From positions 19,517 through 83,516 of the forward strand of contig PBNZ01000037.1 of NCBI GenBank assembly GCA_002723275.1: a DNA stretch of 64,000 nucleotides, given 5' to 3'. Of this stretch, positions 48,011 to 64,000 are shown in pieces (position 1 is the first letter of the stretch; each line of letters starts with the position of its first letter). The DNA comes from Planctomycetaceae bacterium (GTDB lineage: Bacteria; Planctomycetota; Planctomycetia; Pirellulales; Pirellulaceae). The notes beneath the pieces are model-generated. The model was not told the DNA's origin. It worked only from the letters and a program-made list of their open reading frames with translations, and ran no database searches. A program made the position numbers and the translations under genes.

Positions 48011-48084
<74 letters not shown>

Positions 48085-53838: not shown

Positions 53839-56800
53839 TCATTCGCCTTTCGAGTGTAGCCAGACAGGTTTCCCTTGCCGGTATAGAATCGCTCGTTTCT
53901 CCAGCGATTTGGTTATCTCGTTGTCACCGCGACCTCGTGCGATGCTGGCAGCTGTTTCCGCAAGCCGAATCGCTTCGTCGAATTTGCCGCCTTGAGCGAG
54001 TGCCGCTGCCAAAGTACCCAGGTACGGAGGAACCGTGTAGCTAGTGCGGTCGCATAGATCTCGCGCAAGATGCAACGCCCTTGTAGGATTACGCACCGAC
54101 GCATCGTTGTGAGTCGCGTACAACCAGGCAAGGTTGTTTGCAGCTTCGTTCGCCTCAGGGGTAGTCGCCAGAATCTGTTCATACTGTTGAATTGCTTCGA
54201 GGGGACTTCCTTGCAACTGCAATGCGATGCCAAGATTGAGTTGTATTTCAGGACTATCGCTCTTCTGCTCTAAGGCTTTGCGGAACCATTCAACCGCCGA
54301 CGGGACTTGACCCGTTTTCATGTAAGTCTGTCCCAACAGGACCATTGTTCCGGCATCGTCCGATACACGACTTGAGATGTCTTGCAGAATCGAATCTGCC
54401 GCCGACGTTTGACCTTGCTGGAACAAGGCCACTGCTAGATTCGCCTTGGCTGTATTGCTATCTGGTTGCAAAGTGACCAATTGACGCAAGATGCGCAGTT
54501 GGTTTTTCGGTTGCCCTCGGTCTCTTTCAATATTGGCCAGGAGCCGAAAACCCTTGATCGTGGTCTGTCGCTGCAGATCCTGTAAGGCCTGCTTCAACCT
54601 TGTTCGCTCAGTCGTCTGGTGGCTCGACGAATTGGTTTGCGTATGACGTGGCACTCGACTTTCGTGGATCGCTCCGGGACGTAGGGAACCCTCCATCACA
54701 TCTGTCAGCCGATCAAAATCGCTGATCTCCGCAATGTTTTTCAGGAAGCGAATCAATTCACGGCGTGCGTCCTGAAGATAGCCAGCCTCGTAATAGGCCG
54801 TTGCCAAACTCAACGGGCTAGGATTGTAGTTGCGAATAATTTGTCTTCCTGGAAAGGGAAACGCCGCTCGGGCGAGTTCCTCGGGGGCGGCTTCGAGACG
54901 TTCAATGTCCATTGCCAATTGCTGAGGTTCGACGGGACCCTTGTAGATCGCTGCGACCTTCCCCTCTTGGTCGATCAATAAACTACAGGGCAGGGGGAGC
55001 GGCTGCGTCAGATAAAAGATGTCGTTGTTTAACGTGGTCAATGCTTGAATGACCTGTTCATTTGCCAGTCCAAACTCAAAGGGCCAATTGGATTCCTGGA
55101 CCAGTGATCTGGCTGTCGATAAATCCGCGTCTTCCTGGAGAGGATCGGTACAAAGCGCGACGACCCGTAGCTTTGACGGTTCGAGCAAACTCCATTCTTT
55201 TGAAAGTTGGTCGAATTCCTCCAGACACGGACGGCACCAGCTTGCCCAAAGATTGATCAAGGTGCCAGAGCGAGACTCTGGTGTAACACTCGCGTTGGAC
55301 AGCTGTCGAGTTTCGCCATTAAAGTCGCGGAATTCGAGGTCGGGCAGGGCGAGTCGGTGTGTCAGTAACGTGCGGGATCGATCGCTGGAAGCTGTTGCCC
55401 CAAGTTGTGAAGCTTGCAGCTGTACCAAACGTTCGCTGTGGACGGCTTTGGCCAGTTGCGAGCCCTGGACGATGCTGTAGCGTTGGTTGGGGAGAATGTT
55501 TTCGAATGATTCCACATCTTGGCTCGGCCAATGAACGGTCAGACGATCAATCTTCCAGTCAGTTCCTAAGCCGAAGTGAACCCACTTGGATGACTGACTG
55601 AGAAATCCCTCACCGGCTCGGAGTGTTCGGATTAGTGTTTTGCGTTGTCCATCTGACGAAGATTCTGCACCTGAAATCGTCGTCTGAAGATGCAATTGAA
55701 CGCGAGCACCAATTGCGTCGCGATTGCAACGGGTCCCCTGCAATCGGACAGCCACAAACTGATTACTCTCAGGACTGCGATTTTGTAGCATCCGCACGCG
55801 TGGTCCTGTTCGGTTGGAGATCCAGAGATCTAGATCTCCGTCATGGTCCCAGTCGACTATTGCCGTTCCTCGTCCATCGTCGATAAAGTCCAGGCCGGTT
55901 ACATAGGAGGCATCTGCGAATTGCTGACCTCCCGTGTTCAGAAAGCAACGGTTGCGTTCGCGTCCGCTGAAACTGAAACCTTCGCTGATCATGCCACCCA
56001 GGTCGCTCCAGTTATCCAGGTAATCTTCAGCATTGGCAGGTGTTTGAGCATCCGTTGGTGATTGCGACACGACCTGTCGCCAAAAGAAGCTTCACAAGTC
56101 TTGGGTCGATTCTTGGGTGATGTAACCGTTGGCGACAATCAGATCTTGCCAGCCATCATTGTTGATGTCGGCGAATTGTGATGACCAGGCCCAGCCACCA
56201 ACGGTGACGCCTGCCGAGACACTACCATCTGAAAACAAGGGTGCATCACCGGCTCCAAGATTGGTGAACAACGAGTTTCCGCGAGCATGTCGCTGGAATC
56301 CGCCGCGTGTCTCGGGTGTCACGCTGTCTTCAAGGAACTGACGTTGGAATGCGATACGGTTTCCAGCCGAGGACCACATGTTGCTGACATACAGGTCCAT
56401 CCATCCGTCGTTGTTGCCGTCACCCCAGCTGACTGACATACCGGCCGACATGTCCTCAACCCCCAACTCCGCCGCCACATCCGTAAAGATTCCGTCATCG
56501 TTGCGGTAGAGGTTGTTGCGTCCGAAATCATTCGCGACATATAAATCTTGATCCCCATCATTGTCAAAGTCTTCCCAGGCGCAGGCCAGACTGAATCGGC
56601 GGTTCGATTTGTCGAGGCCGACCTGTTGGGTGACATTCGAAAAACGCCAGTCGCGGTCGTTTCTCAACAGTACGTTCCGGCTACCATTGTTTGCATCGTG
56701 ATAGGGAACCGGCCGTACCATTCCTTCGGCGGTCGCCCGTCGGGCATAACAGCAGGCGTAGATGTCGAGGTCACCATCGTTGTCGAAATCGGCGGCGGCG

Positions 56801-57957
56801 AGTGAAATCGGTGGACCATCGGGAATAAGTTTGAATTGCCGCGGCCGAAAAATCCCTTCGCCATTGTTTTCAGCCATGATCACACCCGCCATCGTTGCCG
56901 CCACGAGATCCTGATCACCGTCGTTGTCCAGATCGATGAATAACGCGCTGTGGGTCTCGGTCAGCCAGTCCACACCTGCCTCTGCGGATACATCGCGAGC
57001 TGTTCCATCGGGCTGTTGCAGGTACAGGCGATTCGGCAGTCCTCCCGAAATGCCGCCGGGCTGACAAAGATAGACATCGTCCAGTCCATCGCCGTTGACA
57101 TCTCCCACAGCTAATCCGTGATAACTCGTGGCGATGATGCCGTAGTACAACTCAAGACGGTGTAGCCAGTGACCGAGTCCGTAGACCAATTGCTGATGAA
57201 ACGACTCATTCCCACCCAGAACTGATTCAGTACAGTCGGCAAACACACGATCACTTGGCCCTGAAAAAGAAGTCTGTTCGTCCTTGGTGATAGAAATCGA
57301 TTTCAGTCGGGGCGGCGTTTGCGGCGTCCCGATGGTCCAACGACATTCCCATTCGCTTGTCTGTTGGATCGCTTGTATGGCTGTGCGTCCGCCGAGCCGA
57401 ACCACGACCGCGGTGGTCGCCTGATCGGCTTCCATGTCGACGCCGAAGATCTTGAGCTTGCACCGCACGTCGCTCGCATCGGTCAAGGGAGCCGTGAGTT
57501 GATGGAGGGCGCGAAGAAAGCCTTCCGCTCCGTTCTGGACGACGGCTGAATCGGTGGCGATTGCTTCAGGACGTTGTACGGTGAGACCATGATCCTCAAA
57601 GACGGTCGATAACCGTTCCGGCCGCAGCTGGTGGCTCTGAAAACTTGGTGTGATCAAGTTCGAGAGTTGTTCGCCTGAGACTTTTGCTGGATCCTTGACC
57701 CAGTTGGCGATCACGTTTAGTTGGGATTGAGCGGCGCTACTGAACGCTTCGCTATCCCACAGATTACGCTCAAATACCGAAGGCGGCTCCGAGATCGAAA
57801 TCGTCGCCGGCCTCTGACTTGCGCCGGCGGTTTCTTGCGATTCGGCTTGTTGAGCTGGCTCGTCGACCGCTGGCTTCAACGGTTCGGCCTCGCAGCCGGC
57901 GATTAGAAGCACGGCTGCGATGGATAACTTGACGATTGAGCTTGTTGTAACCTTCAT
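53839..57957 (-). CDS. Candidate selenoprotein, copy A: FG-GAP / ASPIC-UnbV / thioredoxin / TPR lipoprotein, about 1372 aa with Sec622
   Basis: Usually this would be called as two genes (57957-56092 and 56070-53839), but the two are in one frame, separated only by TGA at 56094-56092 plus seven codons. Read through, the protein has: lipobox LIAGC (Cys22); an N-terminal domain (~30-280); FG-GAP/VCBS propeller (~285-620; DLDNDGDQDLVAAT, DFDNDGDQDLYVAND); TGA at residue 622 followed by SFFWRQVVSQSP; more propeller (DWDHDGDLDLWISN); ASPIC/UnbV (GARVQLHLQTTISG to VHWPSQDVESFE); a TlpA-like thioredoxin fold with CRPC (Cys908-Cys911); and C-terminal TPR repeats (ANLAVALFQQGQTSAAD). The TGA is followed by a SECIS-like hairpin. 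The ATG at 57957 is used (57960 is TTG). It lies 19 bp after the LamG gene on the same strand, so probably in its operon. Without Sec insertion only the 621-residue first part would be made. Confidence 0.8.
56064..56094 (-). promoter_or_regulatory. SECIS-like hairpin after the TGA codon of copy A
   Basis: On the minus strand TGA (56094-56092) is followed by 11 nt, then the 6-bp stem GCGACA / TGTCGC (56080-56075 and 56069-56064) with loop GGTCG (56074-56070). Two more T-A pairs form below if one G is bulged. The loop begins 17 nt after the TGA. The E. coli fdhF SECIS has a GGUC loop, about 18 nt after UGA, with a bulged base in its stem. Confidence 0.72.
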
Positions 57958-57976: not shown

Positions 57977-59206
57977 TTAAGCCCGTCGACGAAGCCATAA
58001 CGGAGCCAGGCAAAGACCCAGGATAAGCGTCAGCAGCGAAGCAGGTTCTGGCACTGCAGCAACGGCCGCGACGGGACCTGCTTCATAACCGCCGTCTGTG
58101 AACGACGTGACAAGATCTGCTGAGGAAAAATCAAGATCCCCATTCCAGTCGCCGTCACCCCAGTTCGAGTTGCCCGCTTCGGTATCCTCGTACTCACCTC
58201 GAGTAAAGACCTGTACCAGATCAGCACTATCGAACGAACCGTCATTGTTCGAATCGCCAAACCACGTTTTGCGGAGATCTTTGACCCACGTTGTGCGGTC
58301 CAGTTGATTGACAGCGCCATCGTTATTCACGTCGAAACTATTCGAACGATCGGCTTCGGCCTTATTGACCTCTGCCGTCAGTAGATCGATGTCGACCTCA
58401 TCCAACGTACCGTTATTGTCAAAATCACCGGGGACACTTGGGCCACCGCCGCCGGCGCCGAAATCACTGAAGTCGCCACCCATGATCGTCATGATCTGTT
58501 CTTGAGTCAGGGCCTCATTGAAGATTGCCACGTCATCCAGCATGCCATGCATATTCGTTGTTCCGTCCAAACGGCTACCAATGAACAAGGGCATGTCTTC
58601 GTCCACTAACGGCTGGAATTCGACGTCGATGAAGCCATCACCGTTTTCTTCCCCGTTCAGATAGTGCAAGACCTCGCCGTCTTCGGTCATCGTGATCGCG
58701 ATGTGTTGCCATTCTTCAACCGCGGCTGAGTCTAATGAATTGACTTGGGTAATCGCTCCGTTGCCTTCACCAGCAAAATAGCTGACTCGTCCATCACCAC
58801 GATGCGTGTAAACATCATACGGAGAGGGTTTGTTTTGAGCTGCCGAACCTGTCTTGGAGACAACGGCGTTCCAGGTGTCGAACTGTTCGAACTGAGCCCA
58901 GGCTGCAATGGTGATGCCCGTTTCTTCGATCGAAAGCGAATCTGAGTCTTCGACTTCAAGCCAACCAACGGGATTCTGGTCACCTTCGCCCGCGAAGTTC
59001 ATGGCTCCGCCACGATCACCACCGCCGTCGACCCAGGAGACAGCATCGCCCTGTGCGAATGCGTCGTTTCCGTACTCACTGGAATCCGGTTGTGGATCGA
59101 CGTCACTGTCGAATCGCCACAAACCAACGATTTCCGCTTGAGTTGAGCCTGTTACGGCGAAGCATAAAACCGTCGAAACAATCAATACTTTTTTGAGCGA
59201 CATCAT
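57977..59206 (-). CDS. LamG-like / dockerin-like PEP-CTERM protein, 409 aa
   Basis: ATG 59206 (or 59203) has GGAGG 8 bases upstream; the frame is also open to 59221. A signal peptide (SLKKVLIVSTVLCFAVTGSTQA) is followed by a LamG/concanavalin-like domain (IVGLWRFDSDVDPQPDSS, GITIAAWAQFEQFDTWNAVVS, GMLDDVAIFNEALTQEQI). Then comes a dockerin-like EF-hand region (GDFDNNGTLDEVDIDLL, GDSNNDGSFDSADLVQVF, GDWNGDLDFSSADLVTSF) and a PEP-CTERM tail (VPEPASLLTLILGLCLAPLWLRRR). Surface or matrix protein with probable glycan-binding role. It is the first gene of a minus-strand unit with copy A, and divergent from copy B only ~75 bp away. Confidence 0.87.
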   Translation of the reverse strand: MMSLKKVLIVSTVLCFAVTGSTQAEIVGLWRFDSDVDPQPDSSEYGNDAFAQGDAVSWVDGGGDRGGAMNFAGEGDQNPVGWLEVEDSDSLSIEETGITIAAWAQFEQFDTWNAVVSKTGSAAQNKPSPYDVYTHRGDGRVSYFAGEGNGAITQVNSLDSAAVEEWQHIAITMTEDGEVLHYLNGEENGDGFIDVEFQPLVDEDMPLFIGSRLDGTTNMHGMLDDVAIFNEALTQEQIMTIMGGDFSDFGAGGGGPSVPGDFDNNGTLDEVDIDLLTAEVNKAEADRSNSFDVNNDGAVNQLDRTTWVKDLRKTWFGDSNNDGSFDSADLVQVFTRGEYEDTEAGNSNWGDGDWNGDLDFSSADLVTSFTDGGYEAGPVAAVAAVPEPASLLTLILGLCLAPLWLRRRA

Positions 59207-59280
59207 GTTGGCAGCCTCCATTGAAAAGTTGACGCAATCGCGTTACCCGGCGGTCGACCGCCGATGGTAAACTAGCAGAT

Positions 59281-62200
59281 ATGCAGAATCAACTTTTTTC
59301 TACCGAAACGTTTGTTTCGGCATCTGTTGCCGCCGCATTTTCGAGCAGGCTGATAGGCCTGATGGTGATCGGGCTCTGTCTTTGGGGCTGCAATTTTCGA
59401 AAAGAAGTGGCTCCAGTTTCGGAAACGGGACGAAACCAGCAATCTGCCATCGGCGTACACGGAGATCTCAGCGACTCGACCGAACCAACAGCGGAAATCG
59501 CTCGCGGTAAGCTGGGTATGCCCAATGTTTTGGATGCTGATGTCGCTGGGAATTGGGATACCGAACGAGTCAGCCAATTGGTCAGCGACAGGTTACAAGA
59601 GGTGGCCGACCTGTTGAAGAGTTATCCGGCTCCCGAAGTGGAGCAGATGCGGAAGCTGCTGGATGCATCCTTTCAATGTTTCAATTTGCGACCTGATTCG
59701 CCGCCGCTGGTTTACGAGGATGATGTACTCGTCATTCGGCGTCAATTGGATGCCTCCACAAACGCATCCGAAGCATCGGCTCGTTTATTGAATTCGAAAG
59801 TCGACGAAAGCCAGATCCGTGACACATCCGGCGTAACGGATGTCGGAGTGACCTATTCCGGCGTAGAGGGTTTTCTGAAGGCGATGTTGCATCTATCGGA
59901 GCCGCTGCGAAGTGTCGCGAAACGGCAGTGTAAATTCAAGCTGTTTTCGATTGATCTATCTGAAGGCAATGTTCAGACGCTCGCCTACTTTTATCTTAGC
60001 GGCCAGGTCAACGCTCGTCATTTGCAACAGTCGGCCACATGGCGATGCGACTGGAAGCTGAATGGTGAGAGTGATCTCCGTCTCGTATCGATTAATCTGA
60101 TGGATTACGAAGAGGTCGTCTGCCATCAGAACGGTTCGCCGTTCTGGTCGGACTGCACGACGGCGGCCATCGGAAAGTCGGATGCCTTCCAACAGCAACT
60201 TCGATATAGTCTCGACCATTGGTTGGATCGAACGGAACAGAATTATGGCATTGGATCGACGGGCTATCAGGGGCTCGCGATTGCCGATGTCAACGGTGAT
60301 GGGTTGGATGATGTTTTCCTGGCTCAGTCAGGTGGCTTGTTGACAGGTTTGCCTAACCGTTTGTTCGTCCAGCAACCGGATGGTACGGCAGTCGATACTT
60401 CTATTGAGTCTGGCCTTGGATGGACCAACGGAACTCACACTGCGTTATTTGTCGATTTGGACAACGATGGTGATCAGGATGTCATCGTGGCTACTTCGAT
60501 GGGCATCATCTTGGCCGAAAACAATGGCTCCGGCCAATTCAAGATTCAGCAGTCAAAACTGACTCCGGAAGCGCCTCCCATGTCTCTGGCTGCCGCGGAT
60601 TACGATGTCGATGGCGATCTGGATATCTATGTTTGTTGTTATTCCCGACGATCGTCATCTCAGCTTTTAGGACGCCCCCTACCTTTTCACGATGCGAACA
60701 ACGGTGGCCGCAATATCCTGTTTCGAAATGATGGTGGTTGGCGCTTTTCCAATGTGACTCAGTCGGTTGGCTTTGAGCAAAATAATCGGCGTTTCAGTTT
60801 CGCTGCTGCTTGGGAGGACTTTGATAACGACGGTGACCTGGATTTGTATGTCGCCAATGATTACGGCCGCAATAATCTGTTTCGCAATGACGATGGTCAG
60901 TTTACGGACGTCGCTGACGAGTTAGGGGTTGAGGATATTTCGGCGGGAATGTCGGTGACCTGGGGTGACTACAATCGTGACGGGATGATGGACCTGTATG
61001 TCAGCAACATGTGGTCATCTGCCGGAAATCGCATTGCCTATCAACGTCAATTCCAGGAGAGTGCAGATGACGCGACTCTCCAACAATATCAGCGGCACGC
61101 TCGGGGAAATTCCCTGTTTGAAAACGTTGGTTCAATCGGTCCGTTCCGAGATGTGAGTGTACCGGCAGCGGTCACGATGGGACGTTGGGCCTGGTCATCT
61201 CACTTTGCCGACATCAATAACGACGGTTGGCAGGACTTGTTGGTGGCAAACGGCTTTGTGACACAGGAAGACACATCTGACTTGTGAAGTTTCTTTTGGC
61301 GACAGGTCGTGTCGCAATCACCCGTCGATGCAACCGCTCCGACGGATGAATACCTGGATAGCTGGAATCAATTGTCGCAGATGATTCGTAATGGTCGCAG
61401 TTTCAGCGGGCGCGAACGCAATTGCTGTTTCCTCAATACGGGGCAGCAGCGATTCGCAGATGTTTCCGCTGCGACCGGCTTTGATTTTCCTGACGATGGT
61501 CGTGGTTTGGCACTGGTTGATTGGGATCAAGACGGTGATCTCGATGCCTGGATTGCGAATCGGTCGAGTCCTCAAGTGCGATTGTTAATGAACCGTATGC
61601 AGACGGATCATCGTTGGGTTGCCTTTCGGCTCGAGGGCACCCAATGCAATCGCGATGCAATTGGTGCTCGTGTCACCGTTATTACGCATGCCAAAGAGCA
61701 GCGGCCGCAGATCAAGACCTTACGAGCCGGTGAAGGGTTCCTCAGTCAATCCAGCAAGTGGCTTCATTTTGGCCTTGGAAACGACACGCTAAAACGCGTC
61801 ATTGTCCATTGGCCGGGTGCGGAAAGCCCAGAAGTCTTTGAAGGATTGGAATCGGATCTTCGTTATAAAGTTGTTCAGGGTACAGGACACGCGCTGCCGC
61901 TTGAACCGCGGTCTGGTGTCGTGCTTCCGCCGTCTGAGCTGATGCCAACTCCGAGCCAGGAAACCGCTCGCATTGTCCTGTTGCAGAGGCATCGTTTGGA
62001 GGGTATTCAATTCACCGATTTCAAATTGCAGCAGAAGACACTTGTTCCTGGCAACAGAAGCCCGCGGCTGATAAACCTTTGGGCTTCCTGGTGTCAGCCA
62101 TGTATCGCCGAACTTGCCGCTCTGCAAGAGCGAGCCAATGACCTGGCAAGCGTCCAGCTTTCGGTTACGGCCTTGTGCGTGGACCGGGTTCAAGATGAAA

Positions 62201-63363
62201 ACGCGGATCCAGCACTCGCCCAAACGATCGTCGAGGCTTGGGATGCGATTGAATTCGGCTGGGCCGAAACCGATTTGCTGCGTGACCTGACGAATGTTCA
62301 CAACGATGTGCTCTACCGCCAAAGATCTTTGCCGGTCCCCTGCAGCTTCTTGCTCGACGAACAAGGAGCGATTGCCGCGATTTACCGAGGTCCGCTGGAG
62401 GTCGATCAACTACTCAAAGATGTGCGGTTGTTGAATCGCTCGCCCCCAGAACTTGCGGAAACCGCTGTTCCCTTTTCCGGGATGAATGTCGCACGCAGAT
62501 TTTCTCCCCATGGAGTCAATGTTGCTCGTGCTTACCTTGAAGGCGGCTACCTGGATGATGCACGCATTGAATTGGAAATGTATGTCCGACAGCACTCTAA
62601 TGCGACAAATTCGAATGCGAGGACGGATAGCAATCGGAATCGTTTGCTGCAGGCGTACCTGTTGTTGGCCAGGATTGCCCAGCAACAAGATCGCACTCGC
62701 GATCAAGTTAATGCCCTGCGACAAGCCATCCAACTAGAGCCAACCGAGTTTGATGCTCGAATTGAGTTGGCGTTCGCTGTCCTGGCTGGTGAAGGCGATC
62801 GCGATGCGGCGAATGCCCTGCTCAGTCAGGCTCGGCTCCTGGCCTCGGACAATGTCGATCGATTCGTGCGTTTAGGGCAGGCCTATGCAAGAATCGGTCA
62901 GGTTCAACAAGCGATTGAATTCTTCCAGCGTGCCACAACCTTGGAGCCACAGAAGCCTGAACCACGTTTCAACTTGGCGATAGCGCTTCAGCTTTCTGGC
63001 CAATCGGCATCGGCTGTAACCCAGTACAGTCAATTGTTGGAAACGCATCCGGGACTGATCGAAGCGGCCAACAACCTGGCATGGTTGTTGGCGACCGACG
63101 AAAATCCGGCGATACGAGATGCCTCGCGAGCGATCGAATTGGCAGCCAGTGTCTGTTCCACGACGCAAAATTCTAATCCTGCTTATCTGGATACATTGGC
63201 TGAGGCCTATGCGGCCGCTGGAAATTACAGCGAAGCTGTTCAAGTTGTCGCGCAAGCCATCGAAATCGCACTCAAAGATGAAAACGCGGAAATGGTGCAG
63301 AAGCTTCGGCAAAGGCGTCAGCGATTTCAGTCAGAAATAAATACAGCCACCGAACGCGAATAA
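59281..63363 (+). CDS. Candidate selenoprotein, copy B: FG-GAP / ASPIC-UnbV / thioredoxin / TPR lipoprotein, 1360 aa with Sec669
   Basis: Conventional calling gives two genes (59281-61287 and 61309-63363, the second from a GTG). They share one frame, broken only by TGA at 61285-61287. Read through: lipobox LWGC (Cys37); N-terminal domain to ~330; FG-GAP/VCBS propeller (DVNGDGLDDVFLAQ, DFDNDGDLDLYVAND); TGA at residue 669 then SFFWRQVVSQSP; further propeller (DWDQDGDLDAWIAN); ASPIC/UnbV (~778-857, RAGEGFLSQSSKWLHFGLG); TlpA-like thioredoxin fold with CQPC (Cys938-Cys941); TPR array (~1100-1345, AIEFFQRATTLEPQKPEPR). The proposed second start lies inside the SECIS-like stem and has no Shine-Dalgarno, and the split would cut the propeller. 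The protein is a diverged paralogue of copy A, in inverted orientation. Extracytoplasmic, lipid-anchored. Role of Sec unknown. Confidence 0.82.
61285..61315 (+). promoter_or_regulatory. SECIS-like hairpin after the TGA codon of copy B
   Basis: TGA (61285-61287) is followed by 11 nt, then stem GCGACA (61299-61304), loop GGTCG (61305-61309) and TGTCGC (61310-61315). A bulged G at 61298 allows two further T-A pairs. The 35 bases after TGA differ from copy A at one position only (third base of the first Ser codon). The GTG sometimes used as a start (61309-61311) begins on the last loop base and runs into the right arm. Confidence 0.75.
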
Positions 63364-63434: not shown

Positions 63435-64000
63435 ATGAATTCTAAAAAACGCCTTCTCCGACACGGTTTGGAATCGCTTGAAATTCGATTAGTGCTGGAT
63501 AGCACTGTCGTGTTCAATGAACTTATGTATCACCCCCTGCAAGGGCAGGAATCGCTGGAGTTTGTTGAACTTCACAATCAGATGGCCGTCGATATGGACA
63601 TCTCGAAGTGGAGTCTTCAACAAGGTATCTCCTTTGAATTCCCCGAGGGAACGATTGTGCCCGGAGGAGGGTATCTGGTTCTCGCAAAGGATCCGGCTGC
63701 CTTGCAGCAAGAAGGTGCCGAGGTGGTGGGCCCCTACGAAGGCAGTTTGTCCAATCAGGGGGAACGTCTGGAGTTGCGTGACCGCAATGATCGTCGCATG
63801 GATGTGATCGATTACGACGATGGTGGTCAGTGGCCCATCGCGGCGGATGGTTCTGGAGCTTCGTTGGCGAAGATTGATGAGGATACTCTGAGCCGGCGTG
63901 CTGAAAACTGGTCGTCTAGTATTGTTGTGGGGGGGACTCCGGGCGCGGCTAATTTTCCGGAAGAGGTTGAGCCGGATCCGGATGTAATTCAGCAACTGCT
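63435..64000 (+). CDS. LTD-domain giant secreted protein, 3' truncated by window edge
   Basis: ATG 63435 follows GAGA. The leader is the planctomycete type (RHGLESLEIRLVLDST), a variant of the LExRVLLAAD motif. An LTD domain follows (VVFNELMYHPLQGQ, EFVELHNQMAVDMDISKW, GGGYLVLAKDPAALQ) with the typical LTD end (VIDYDDGGQWPIAADGSGAS). The frame is open to the last base, ~188 codons. By analogy with 6670-11679 it may continue with CotH, more LTD and dockerin domains. Confidence 0.85.
   Translation, partial: MNSKKRLLRHGLESLEIRLVLDSTVVFNELMYHPLQGQESLEFVELHNQMAVDMDISKWSLQQGISFEFPEGTIVPGGGYLVLAKDPAALQQEGAEVVGPYEGSLSNQGERLELRDRNDRRMDVIDYDDGGQWPIAADGSGASLAKIDEDTLSRRAENWSSSIVVGGTPGAANFPEEVEPDPDVIQQL

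Follow-up and report, generated by a model that had tools for sequence, protein, structure and literature searches.

We have identified two paralogous genes, copies A and B, in a 64,000-nucleotide stretch of a Planctomycetaceae genome (assembly GCA_002723275.1, contig PBNZ01000037.1; hereafter the window), and conclude that each very probably encodes one lipid-anchored selenoprotein, read through an in-frame UGA, whose selenocysteine (Sec) is somewhat more likely than not to work in a redox relay set out below. The sequence evidence makes decoding of the UGA as Sec, in our judgement, nearly certain.

In copy B, two open reading frames (ORFs; 59281-61287 and 61309-63363, forward strand) share one frame and are separated by TGA and the codons for SFFWRQV, an arrangement that an earlier sequence-only reading had described and that the ORF list and translation confirm. 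With the TGA read as Sec, the gene specifies 1360 residues with Sec at position 669 (DLLVANGFVTQEDTSDL-U-SFFWR across the codon), and translation and Pfam bear out the accompanying proposal of a single lipoprotein with propeller, ASPIC/UnbV, thioredoxin and tetratricopeptide repeat (TPR) parts. A lipoprotein-type signal, LCLWGC, is recognizable by inspection at the N-terminus, followed in Pfam and NCBIfam scans by FG-GAP repeats, UnbV_ASPIC, a thioredoxin stretch and TPRs, in that order. FG-GAP and UnbV_ASPIC both lie above their Pfam cut-offs. The AhpC-TSA/thioredoxin match at residues 926-1033 scores 25.6 bits in copy B, just short of the cut-off of 26, and 37.6 bits in copy A; the thioredoxin-like domain matches TlpA 1jfu at 1.6e-9. 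Copies A and B are identical at 43 of 44 nucleotides around their TGAs, and their flanking coding DNA is widely divergent. A changed genetic code was rejected because TGA ends nine of the 31 window ORFs of at least 250 residues (two of these recoded) and is also the end codon of copy A itself.

The same codon recurs throughout a protein family. Among 60 genomes (the source genome and 59 relatives, ten candidates scored per genome), 38 contained family matches, and every row below E = 1e-100 had a TGA inside it. We aligned 85 segments, two from the window and the others from 78 loci that were picked from the 60-genome table and represent part of its rows. TGA occupies one single column in 77 of these segments and occurs in no other column. 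The TGA rows beyond this count include G014:C381, G033:C30 and G002:C62, as well as unresolved partial ones in G007 and G024, and genome G003 was examined apart from the 85 segments. The 77 segments comprise 59 long forms, with a DLUSFFWRQVVS-like motif, and 18 short forms, with a PDGUTCLWRAVVS-like motif. Additionally, a scan of named genomes, covering the best 80 of 450 relatives, gave 25 more TGA sites, the records bearing the labels Verrucomicrobiota, Planctomycetota, Acidobacteria, Gemmatimonadetes and Dehalococcoidia; one of these sites, L140, is on a contig already represented by L093. About 100 genes in several phyla, Chloroflexota-labelled records included, thus carry TGA at exactly this codon. 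Although a stop inside a domain is the usual mark of decay, this recurrence, the confinement of TGA to one column in the 77 segments and the conservation of flanking codons on both sides leave a pseudogene or sequencing error with a negligible probability.

Homologues were also aligned for Cys at residue 669, a check put forward in the sequence-only reading, and Cys was found at the Sec position in six relatives above 95 bits, plus one 56-bit row. The eight aligned segments without TGA have Cys (five), Ser, Gly or Ala (one each), and the named scan contributed one Cys form (labelled Deltaproteobacteria) and one Glu form (L174). Five acidobacterial forms (L146, L147, L148, L150, L151) carry A, S, G, N and S at this position. 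At 41-81 bits, 11 further rows show I, L, N, R, F, V or C in the column; these weak matches are distant FG-GAP proteins whose alignment is unsure at this point. In a tree of 115 rows, 101 of them Sec (one counted twice), the six Cys forms make up one clade and the five acidobacterial non-Sec forms another, which is nested within the Sec long forms; the nearest non-Sec relatives have S, N, A or G, not Cys. Bootstrap support for this tree had not settled, and long-branch warnings were raised, among them for branches near the Cys clade; named rows below 95 bits, rows shorter than 150 residues and identical rows were dropped, and L139 is present twice. In close relatives without TGA (Cys, Ser, Asn, Ala, Gly or Glu), the frame runs uninterrupted across the site, and no truly separate two-gene homologues were seen among those aligned. 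Thus, the two halves appear to be one protein.

Structure prediction points the same way. The AlphaFold2 model of residues 181-905, built on a 28-row alignment from which L149, whose upstream part has frame breaks, was kept out, has a predicted local distance difference test score of 89.2 and a predicted template modelling score of 0.92. Its top solved match is murine CRTAC1 (9etn; Z 36.9, 2.3 Å over 458 residues, model residues 99-688; Foldseek E 9.9e-27), and the model puts the UGA site within one CRTAC1-like propeller, in agreement with the earlier placement inside the FG-GAP propeller. A strand (model residues 484-487) is followed by a helix (489-499), of which Sec669 (model residue 489) is the first residue. 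As the UGA lies within a single predicted propeller, stopping there would leave that propeller incomplete. Two genes, with termination at the TGA and a restart at the GTG 21 nucleotides behind it, would be compatible with the length of both ORFs, with the closeness of the GTG to the stop and with an AGG a few bases upstream of the GTG. However, such a split would cut one confidently predicted propeller, and close relatives lacking the TGA are continuous. The GTG, moreover, sits inside a covarying hairpin and is the sole start closer than the nearest in-frame ATG, which lies 31 codons beyond the TGA, much as the sequence-only reading had it. We consider the two-gene explanation very improbable.

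This hairpin, GCGACA-GGUCG-UGUCGC, begins 14 nucleotides after the T of the UGA, and has a 6-base-pair stem, a 5-nucleotide loop opening with GG, a UGA-loop spacing of 17 nucleotides and an energy of -7.9 kcal/mol when folded alone. The constraints for a bacterial Sec insertion sequence (bSECIS), as given in the portion of PMC13188914 consulted, are a stem of 4-16 base pairs, a loop of 3-9 nucleotides with G in the first two loop positions, a UGA-loop spacing of 16-37 nucleotides and a minimum free energy of at most -7.5. The sequence-only reading had suggested a SECIS predictor for positions 61285-61330; checked against the above constraints, the hairpins of copies A and B both comply. The chance level is 68 of the 2513 TGA triplets in the window, and among TGAs that end ORFs of at least 250 residues, compliance is limited to two of nine, those of copies A and B. 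Rfam SECIS_1 (RF00031) gave no match in the source genome and none in 14 control genomes either, and is therefore uninformative.

Covariation was assessed on 51 sequences, of which 28 were selected for diversity from the 59 long forms and 23 came from the 25 named sequences. In this alignment 91.2% of cells pair, the covariation score is 0.248, and 16 cells have both partners changed, against a shuffled mean of 4.8; none of 500 shuffles reached any of these three values. Pair 18-28 occurs as AU (20), GU (13), CG (7), GC (5) and UA (2). Synonymous sites tell a similar story: homozygosity in excess of the codon-usage expectation is, in the hairpin, 0.36 (8 columns) versus 0.03 outside (82 columns) for long forms (p = 1.2e-5), and 0.38 (6 columns) versus 0.02 (78 columns) for short forms (p = 0.03). 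RNAalifold run on the 59 long forms returns the 6-base-pair stem. Support for the hairpin thus comes from covariation and from conservation of codons, and folding energy adds none.

The source genome (6.8 megabases, 47 contigs, 96.6% complete) encodes the machinery that Sec decoding requires. We detected a tRNA-Sec (71.3 bits; called tRNA-SeC with anticodon tca by ARAGORN), selB (386 bits), selA directly behind selB (578 bits) and selD (356 bits), so that selA, selB, selC and selD, on whose presence the sequence-only reading had staked its proposal, are all there. The selD gene (G000:C44:1006-1932; L020, L106) itself contains a TGA in frame, within CAG-U-AGK, and is probably a selenoprotein gene. 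We take this context to be the usual Sec site of SelD, and selD thus provides an internal positive control for Sec decoding. Among the 59 relatives, selA is above the cut-off in 37, comprising all 19 with a confirmed TGA gene (L052-L131) versus 18 of the 40 others (Fisher p = 2e-5, a value that, like the other p-values here, ignores relatedness).

SelB and Sec-tRNA(UCA) very probably decode the in-frame UGA with the aid of the bSECIS hairpin just downstream, so that the ribosome inserts Sec and completes the 1360-residue exported lipoprotein. The Sec, if redox-active, would then form a selenenylsulfide with a propeller Cys, which in the long form is that of ERNCxFLN and in the short form perhaps that of U-x-C. 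Reduction of this Sec-Cys bond would fall to the TlpA-like CxxC thioredoxin domain fused to the propeller. Propeller and TPRs may bind a partner, which in the source lineage could be the PEP-CTERM protein encoded next door. Both the chemistry and the substrate of the Sec lipoprotein are thus what we infer.

Conservation of cysteines is consistent with such a relay. The Cys of ERNCxFLN is kept in 53 of 59 long-form rows, the Cys after Sec in U-x-C is present in 18 of 18 short forms, and, where a thioredoxin match exists, both CxxC cysteines are kept in 78 of 79 Sec rows versus one of five non-Sec rows. The ERNC cysteine is missing in all five acidobacterial non-Sec rows, and the three of these with an alignable thioredoxin domain have each lost one CxxC cysteine; in the fourth this domain is not alignable, and the fifth row is cut short. 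Duplicates (L139, and L140 with L093) are included in the CxxC count, two among the 79, and in the clade-wide count of the ERNC cysteine. For the long form we lean towards a Sec-Cys-thioredoxin relay, guided by the co-loss of these residues in one clade of sequences.

Two other roles for the Sec codon deserve weighing. The Sec could be a metal ligand or a near-neutral relic and not a catalytic thiol-type residue, an option made conceivable by the S, S, N, A and G, not Cys, that the five acidobacterial relatives carry and by the FG-GAP motifs, which bind calcium. However, Sec is an expensive residue that is nonetheless kept in 101 of the 115 tree rows, it sits at the start of a helix in the model, a common place for redox cysteines, and the CxxC and propeller cysteines decay where Sec is lost; we regard a ligand or relic as unlikely. 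Alternatively, because Sec insertion in general competes with termination, the UGA could be a selenium-responsive switch at which a truncated propeller lipoprotein and the full Sec protein are both made and both matter. The N-terminal part alone would indeed be an exported lipoprotein, but it would be without the last part of its propeller, and we give the switch a similarly low probability. A full-length selenoprotein with a redox-active Sec remains our preferred explanation.

Several observations weigh against this interpretation. With respect to the hairpin, double-change pairs (2; 143 of 500 shuffles as high) and further pair types (8; 48 of 500) are not unusual, so that two of five covariation measures are unremarkable, because most of the signal sits in one pair. 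Given the mixed 51-sequence alignment, RNAalifold favours another, 3-base-pair stem, and lone windows fold not clearly better than shuffles (z of 0.46 and -1.04 for 51 nucleotides, -1.74 and -0.35 for 66 nucleotides). With respect to the machinery, the short-form TGA gene of genome G003 (L044) is intact and a tRNA-Sec scores 65.8 bits there, but the genome gave no selA match and no selB above the cut-off. As selA and selB are adjacent in the source genome, a gap in the draft assembly of G003 could explain both absences, and G003 stays an exception; that its gene is a pseudogene was rejected, as the TAGs fall outside the frame holding the site. Genome G005 has a family gene, selA and selB, yet gave no tRNA-Sec match at the threshold used. 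With respect to the relay, L174, with Glu in place of Sec, retains CxxC, and the co-loss of Sec and cysteines is known from one clade of five rows. The ERNC cysteine is missing in several Sec clades and the thioredoxin domain in short forms, and thus the relay as drawn fits the long form only. Finally, the Ser, Asn, Ala or Gly of the acidobacterial relatives means that some function of this fold can do without Sec.

The family resembles several known systems in part. With CRTAC1/ASPIC-UnbV proteins it has the propeller fold (9etn) and the UnbV_ASPIC domain in common; unlike CRTAC1, it carries a Sec and a lipoprotein-type signal and is fused to thioredoxin and TPR parts, and a sequence profile search with the segment around the Sec printed no CRTAC1 match. 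A TlpA/ResA-like thioredoxin domain is common to the family, the UGC-containing TlpA disulfide reductases and the ResA-like WAxxUGC proteins (NF041054). The NF041054 model matches the present thioredoxin domain weakly, at about 20 bits against a cut-off of 300. By their names and listed motif, those families have Sec in the thioredoxin motif, whereas here that motif is a plain CxxC and the Sec lies in the propeller. The bSECIS of fdhF, for bacterial formate dehydrogenase, is reportedly a hairpin at a fixed short distance after the UGA with a similar apical AGGUC core, and its stem sequence and protein context are said to be unrelated to those of the family. The TPR part matches PrsT (TIGR02917), by name a PEP-CTERM/XrtA TPR lipoprotein, at 70 and 75 bits, far below the 312-bit cut-off for membership; PrsT reportedly has no propeller or thioredoxin domain.

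We found no earlier description of this family. Table 1 of PMC13188914 (May 2026; 119 families and subfamilies) has no FG-GAP, UnbV or CRTAC entry and a term search of the accessible text returned zero, while no model of NCBIfam release 20.0 was above its cut-off for nine members (two long, seven short or divergent). To that extent, the statement in the sequence-only reading that no characterised selenoprotein with this architecture was known still stands. Term searches of the text of PMC9312934 and PMC5029168 found no such family, and literature searches of open-licence papers outside bioRxiv gave no report of it among the top entries listed. An earlier mention is possible in the candidate table of PMC4807772, which, in the portion consulted, describes selenoproteins of two planctomycetes. 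In the consulted part of PMC12013277, the deep-Sep study, nine new families are given, none like the present one, and the method is said to be one that may miss selenoproteins without Cys homologues. The remoteness of Cys homologues may be why the family was missed.

Copy numbers in some genomes are high. We searched with a SECIS-like DNA pattern containing TGA, which does not capture the short forms or the more divergent long ones, and used the reversed pattern as a control; inspection of individual matches centred on the source genome. The source genome has 12 matches, each flanked by both halves of a family gene, and one extra copy at C11:117441 that departs from the pattern brings the family genes found there to 13. 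There are 21 matches in the sister species G001, which contributed ten long-form genes to the 85 aligned segments, and nine each in G034 and G057. In total, 66 matches fall in 12 of the 60 genomes, and 26 of 294 genomes sampled across the phylum (source included) have a match, the reversed control giving 0 in both sets. For comparison, the record for a single bacterium given in PMC12013277 is at least 46 selenoprotein genes, counted over all families. The short form, found in related genomes (L108-L128), lacks thioredoxin and TPR parts, carries U-x-C and has another SECIS stem, GGCUGU/ACAGCC, closed by the loop CGUGUC.

In the source genome, a gene for a protein with a PEP-CTERM motif, recognized by regular expression, directly adjoins all 13 family genes found, which form ten clusters (L212-L222; the neighbour of copy B, at 57977-59221, is outside the L213 locus). 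For at least six of the ten clusters the neighbour is also among the Pfam PEP-CTERM matches listed, from a search that scored 150 of 173 candidates and found 126 matches in 6.8 megabases. With a gene number of about 5,500 assumed, we estimate chance adjacency at a few per cent per cluster. In seven wider loci from G001 and G057, a PEP-CTERM-motif gene is likewise beside or near the cluster. In the named genomes such a neighbour was found at two of 16 long Sec genes, at L162 only among other Sec loci and at none of five non-Sec loci, in a count where many loci end at contig ends and two rows are unresolved. Thus, the pairing appears to be a lineage trait, and the idea that it is general to the family was rejected. 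We tentatively raise the possibility, which we hold to be less probable than not by some distance, that every Sec-propeller-thioredoxin-TPR lipoprotein serves the exported PEP-CTERM protein of the adjacent gene as its own oxidoreductase or chaperone, with 13 to about 20 such pairs per cell. As a separate observation, locus L217 (3805-19589, G000:C24) holds three family genes and two PEP-CTERM-motif genes within about 16 kilobases.

Table 1. Features of copies A and B and the gene between them, in window coordinates.
Feature	Position	Strand	Basis
Copy B, probable single selenoprotein gene read through TGA	59281..63363	+	ORF list, translation, Pfam, structure prediction; signal by inspection
Probable UGA selenocysteine codon of copy B, Sec669	61285..61287	+	Translation, homologue alignment
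bSECIS hairpin of copy B: 6-base-pair stem GCGACA/UGUCGC, loop GGUCG, UGA-loop 17 nucleotides	61299..61315	+	Folding, covariation, constraint test
GTG inside the SECIS hairpin, listed start of the apparent second gene; unlikely to be a true start	61309..61311	+	ORF list
Cys715-Cys716 of ERNCCFLN, candidate propeller partner of Sec669	61423..61428	+	Alignment
ASPIC/UnbV domain, residues 793-859	61657..61857	+	Pfam
TlpA/AhpC-TSA-like thioredoxin domain, residues about 904-1040; WASWCQPC at 62080-62103, with Cys938 and Cys941 as its CxxC cysteines	61990..62400	+	Profile, structure matches
TPR region, residues about 1124-1333	62650..63279	+	Pfam, NCBIfam
Copy A, probable selenoprotein gene paralogous to copy B and built alike; listed ORF starts at TTG 57960, ATG at 57957	53839..57957	-	ORF list, translation, Pfam
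Probable UGA selenocysteine codon of copy A	56092..56094	-	Translation, alignment
bSECIS hairpin of copy A, with the same sequence as in copy B	56064..56080	-	Sequence comparison, constraint test
Gene with C-terminal PEP-CTERM motif between copies A and B	57977..59221	-	ORF list, motif expression, Pfam

A very large protein starts 3' of copy B, at 63435-64000, and continues into L213 (4416-11825; 2469 codons in L213); long ORFs also occur near family copies in L214, L221 and L225. The only Rfam match above gathering score in the window is an ordinary tRNA gene at 48011-48084.

These genes represent an apparently unlisted and heavily duplicated selenoprotein family in which Sec lies in a beta-propeller, not in a thioredoxin-type fold. 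Standard annotation likely calls the copies as two genes or as one truncated gene, and thus proteins in several phyla may be mis-annotated. If the proposed role in maturing PEP-CTERM proteins is true, the pairs would constitute a selenium-based surface-maturation system, and a single family would be behind a large share of the organism's need for selenium. Additionally, the family provides a way into the function of ASPIC/UnbV proteins, animal CRTAC1 among them, and into that of the numerous planctomycete PEP-CTERM proteins.

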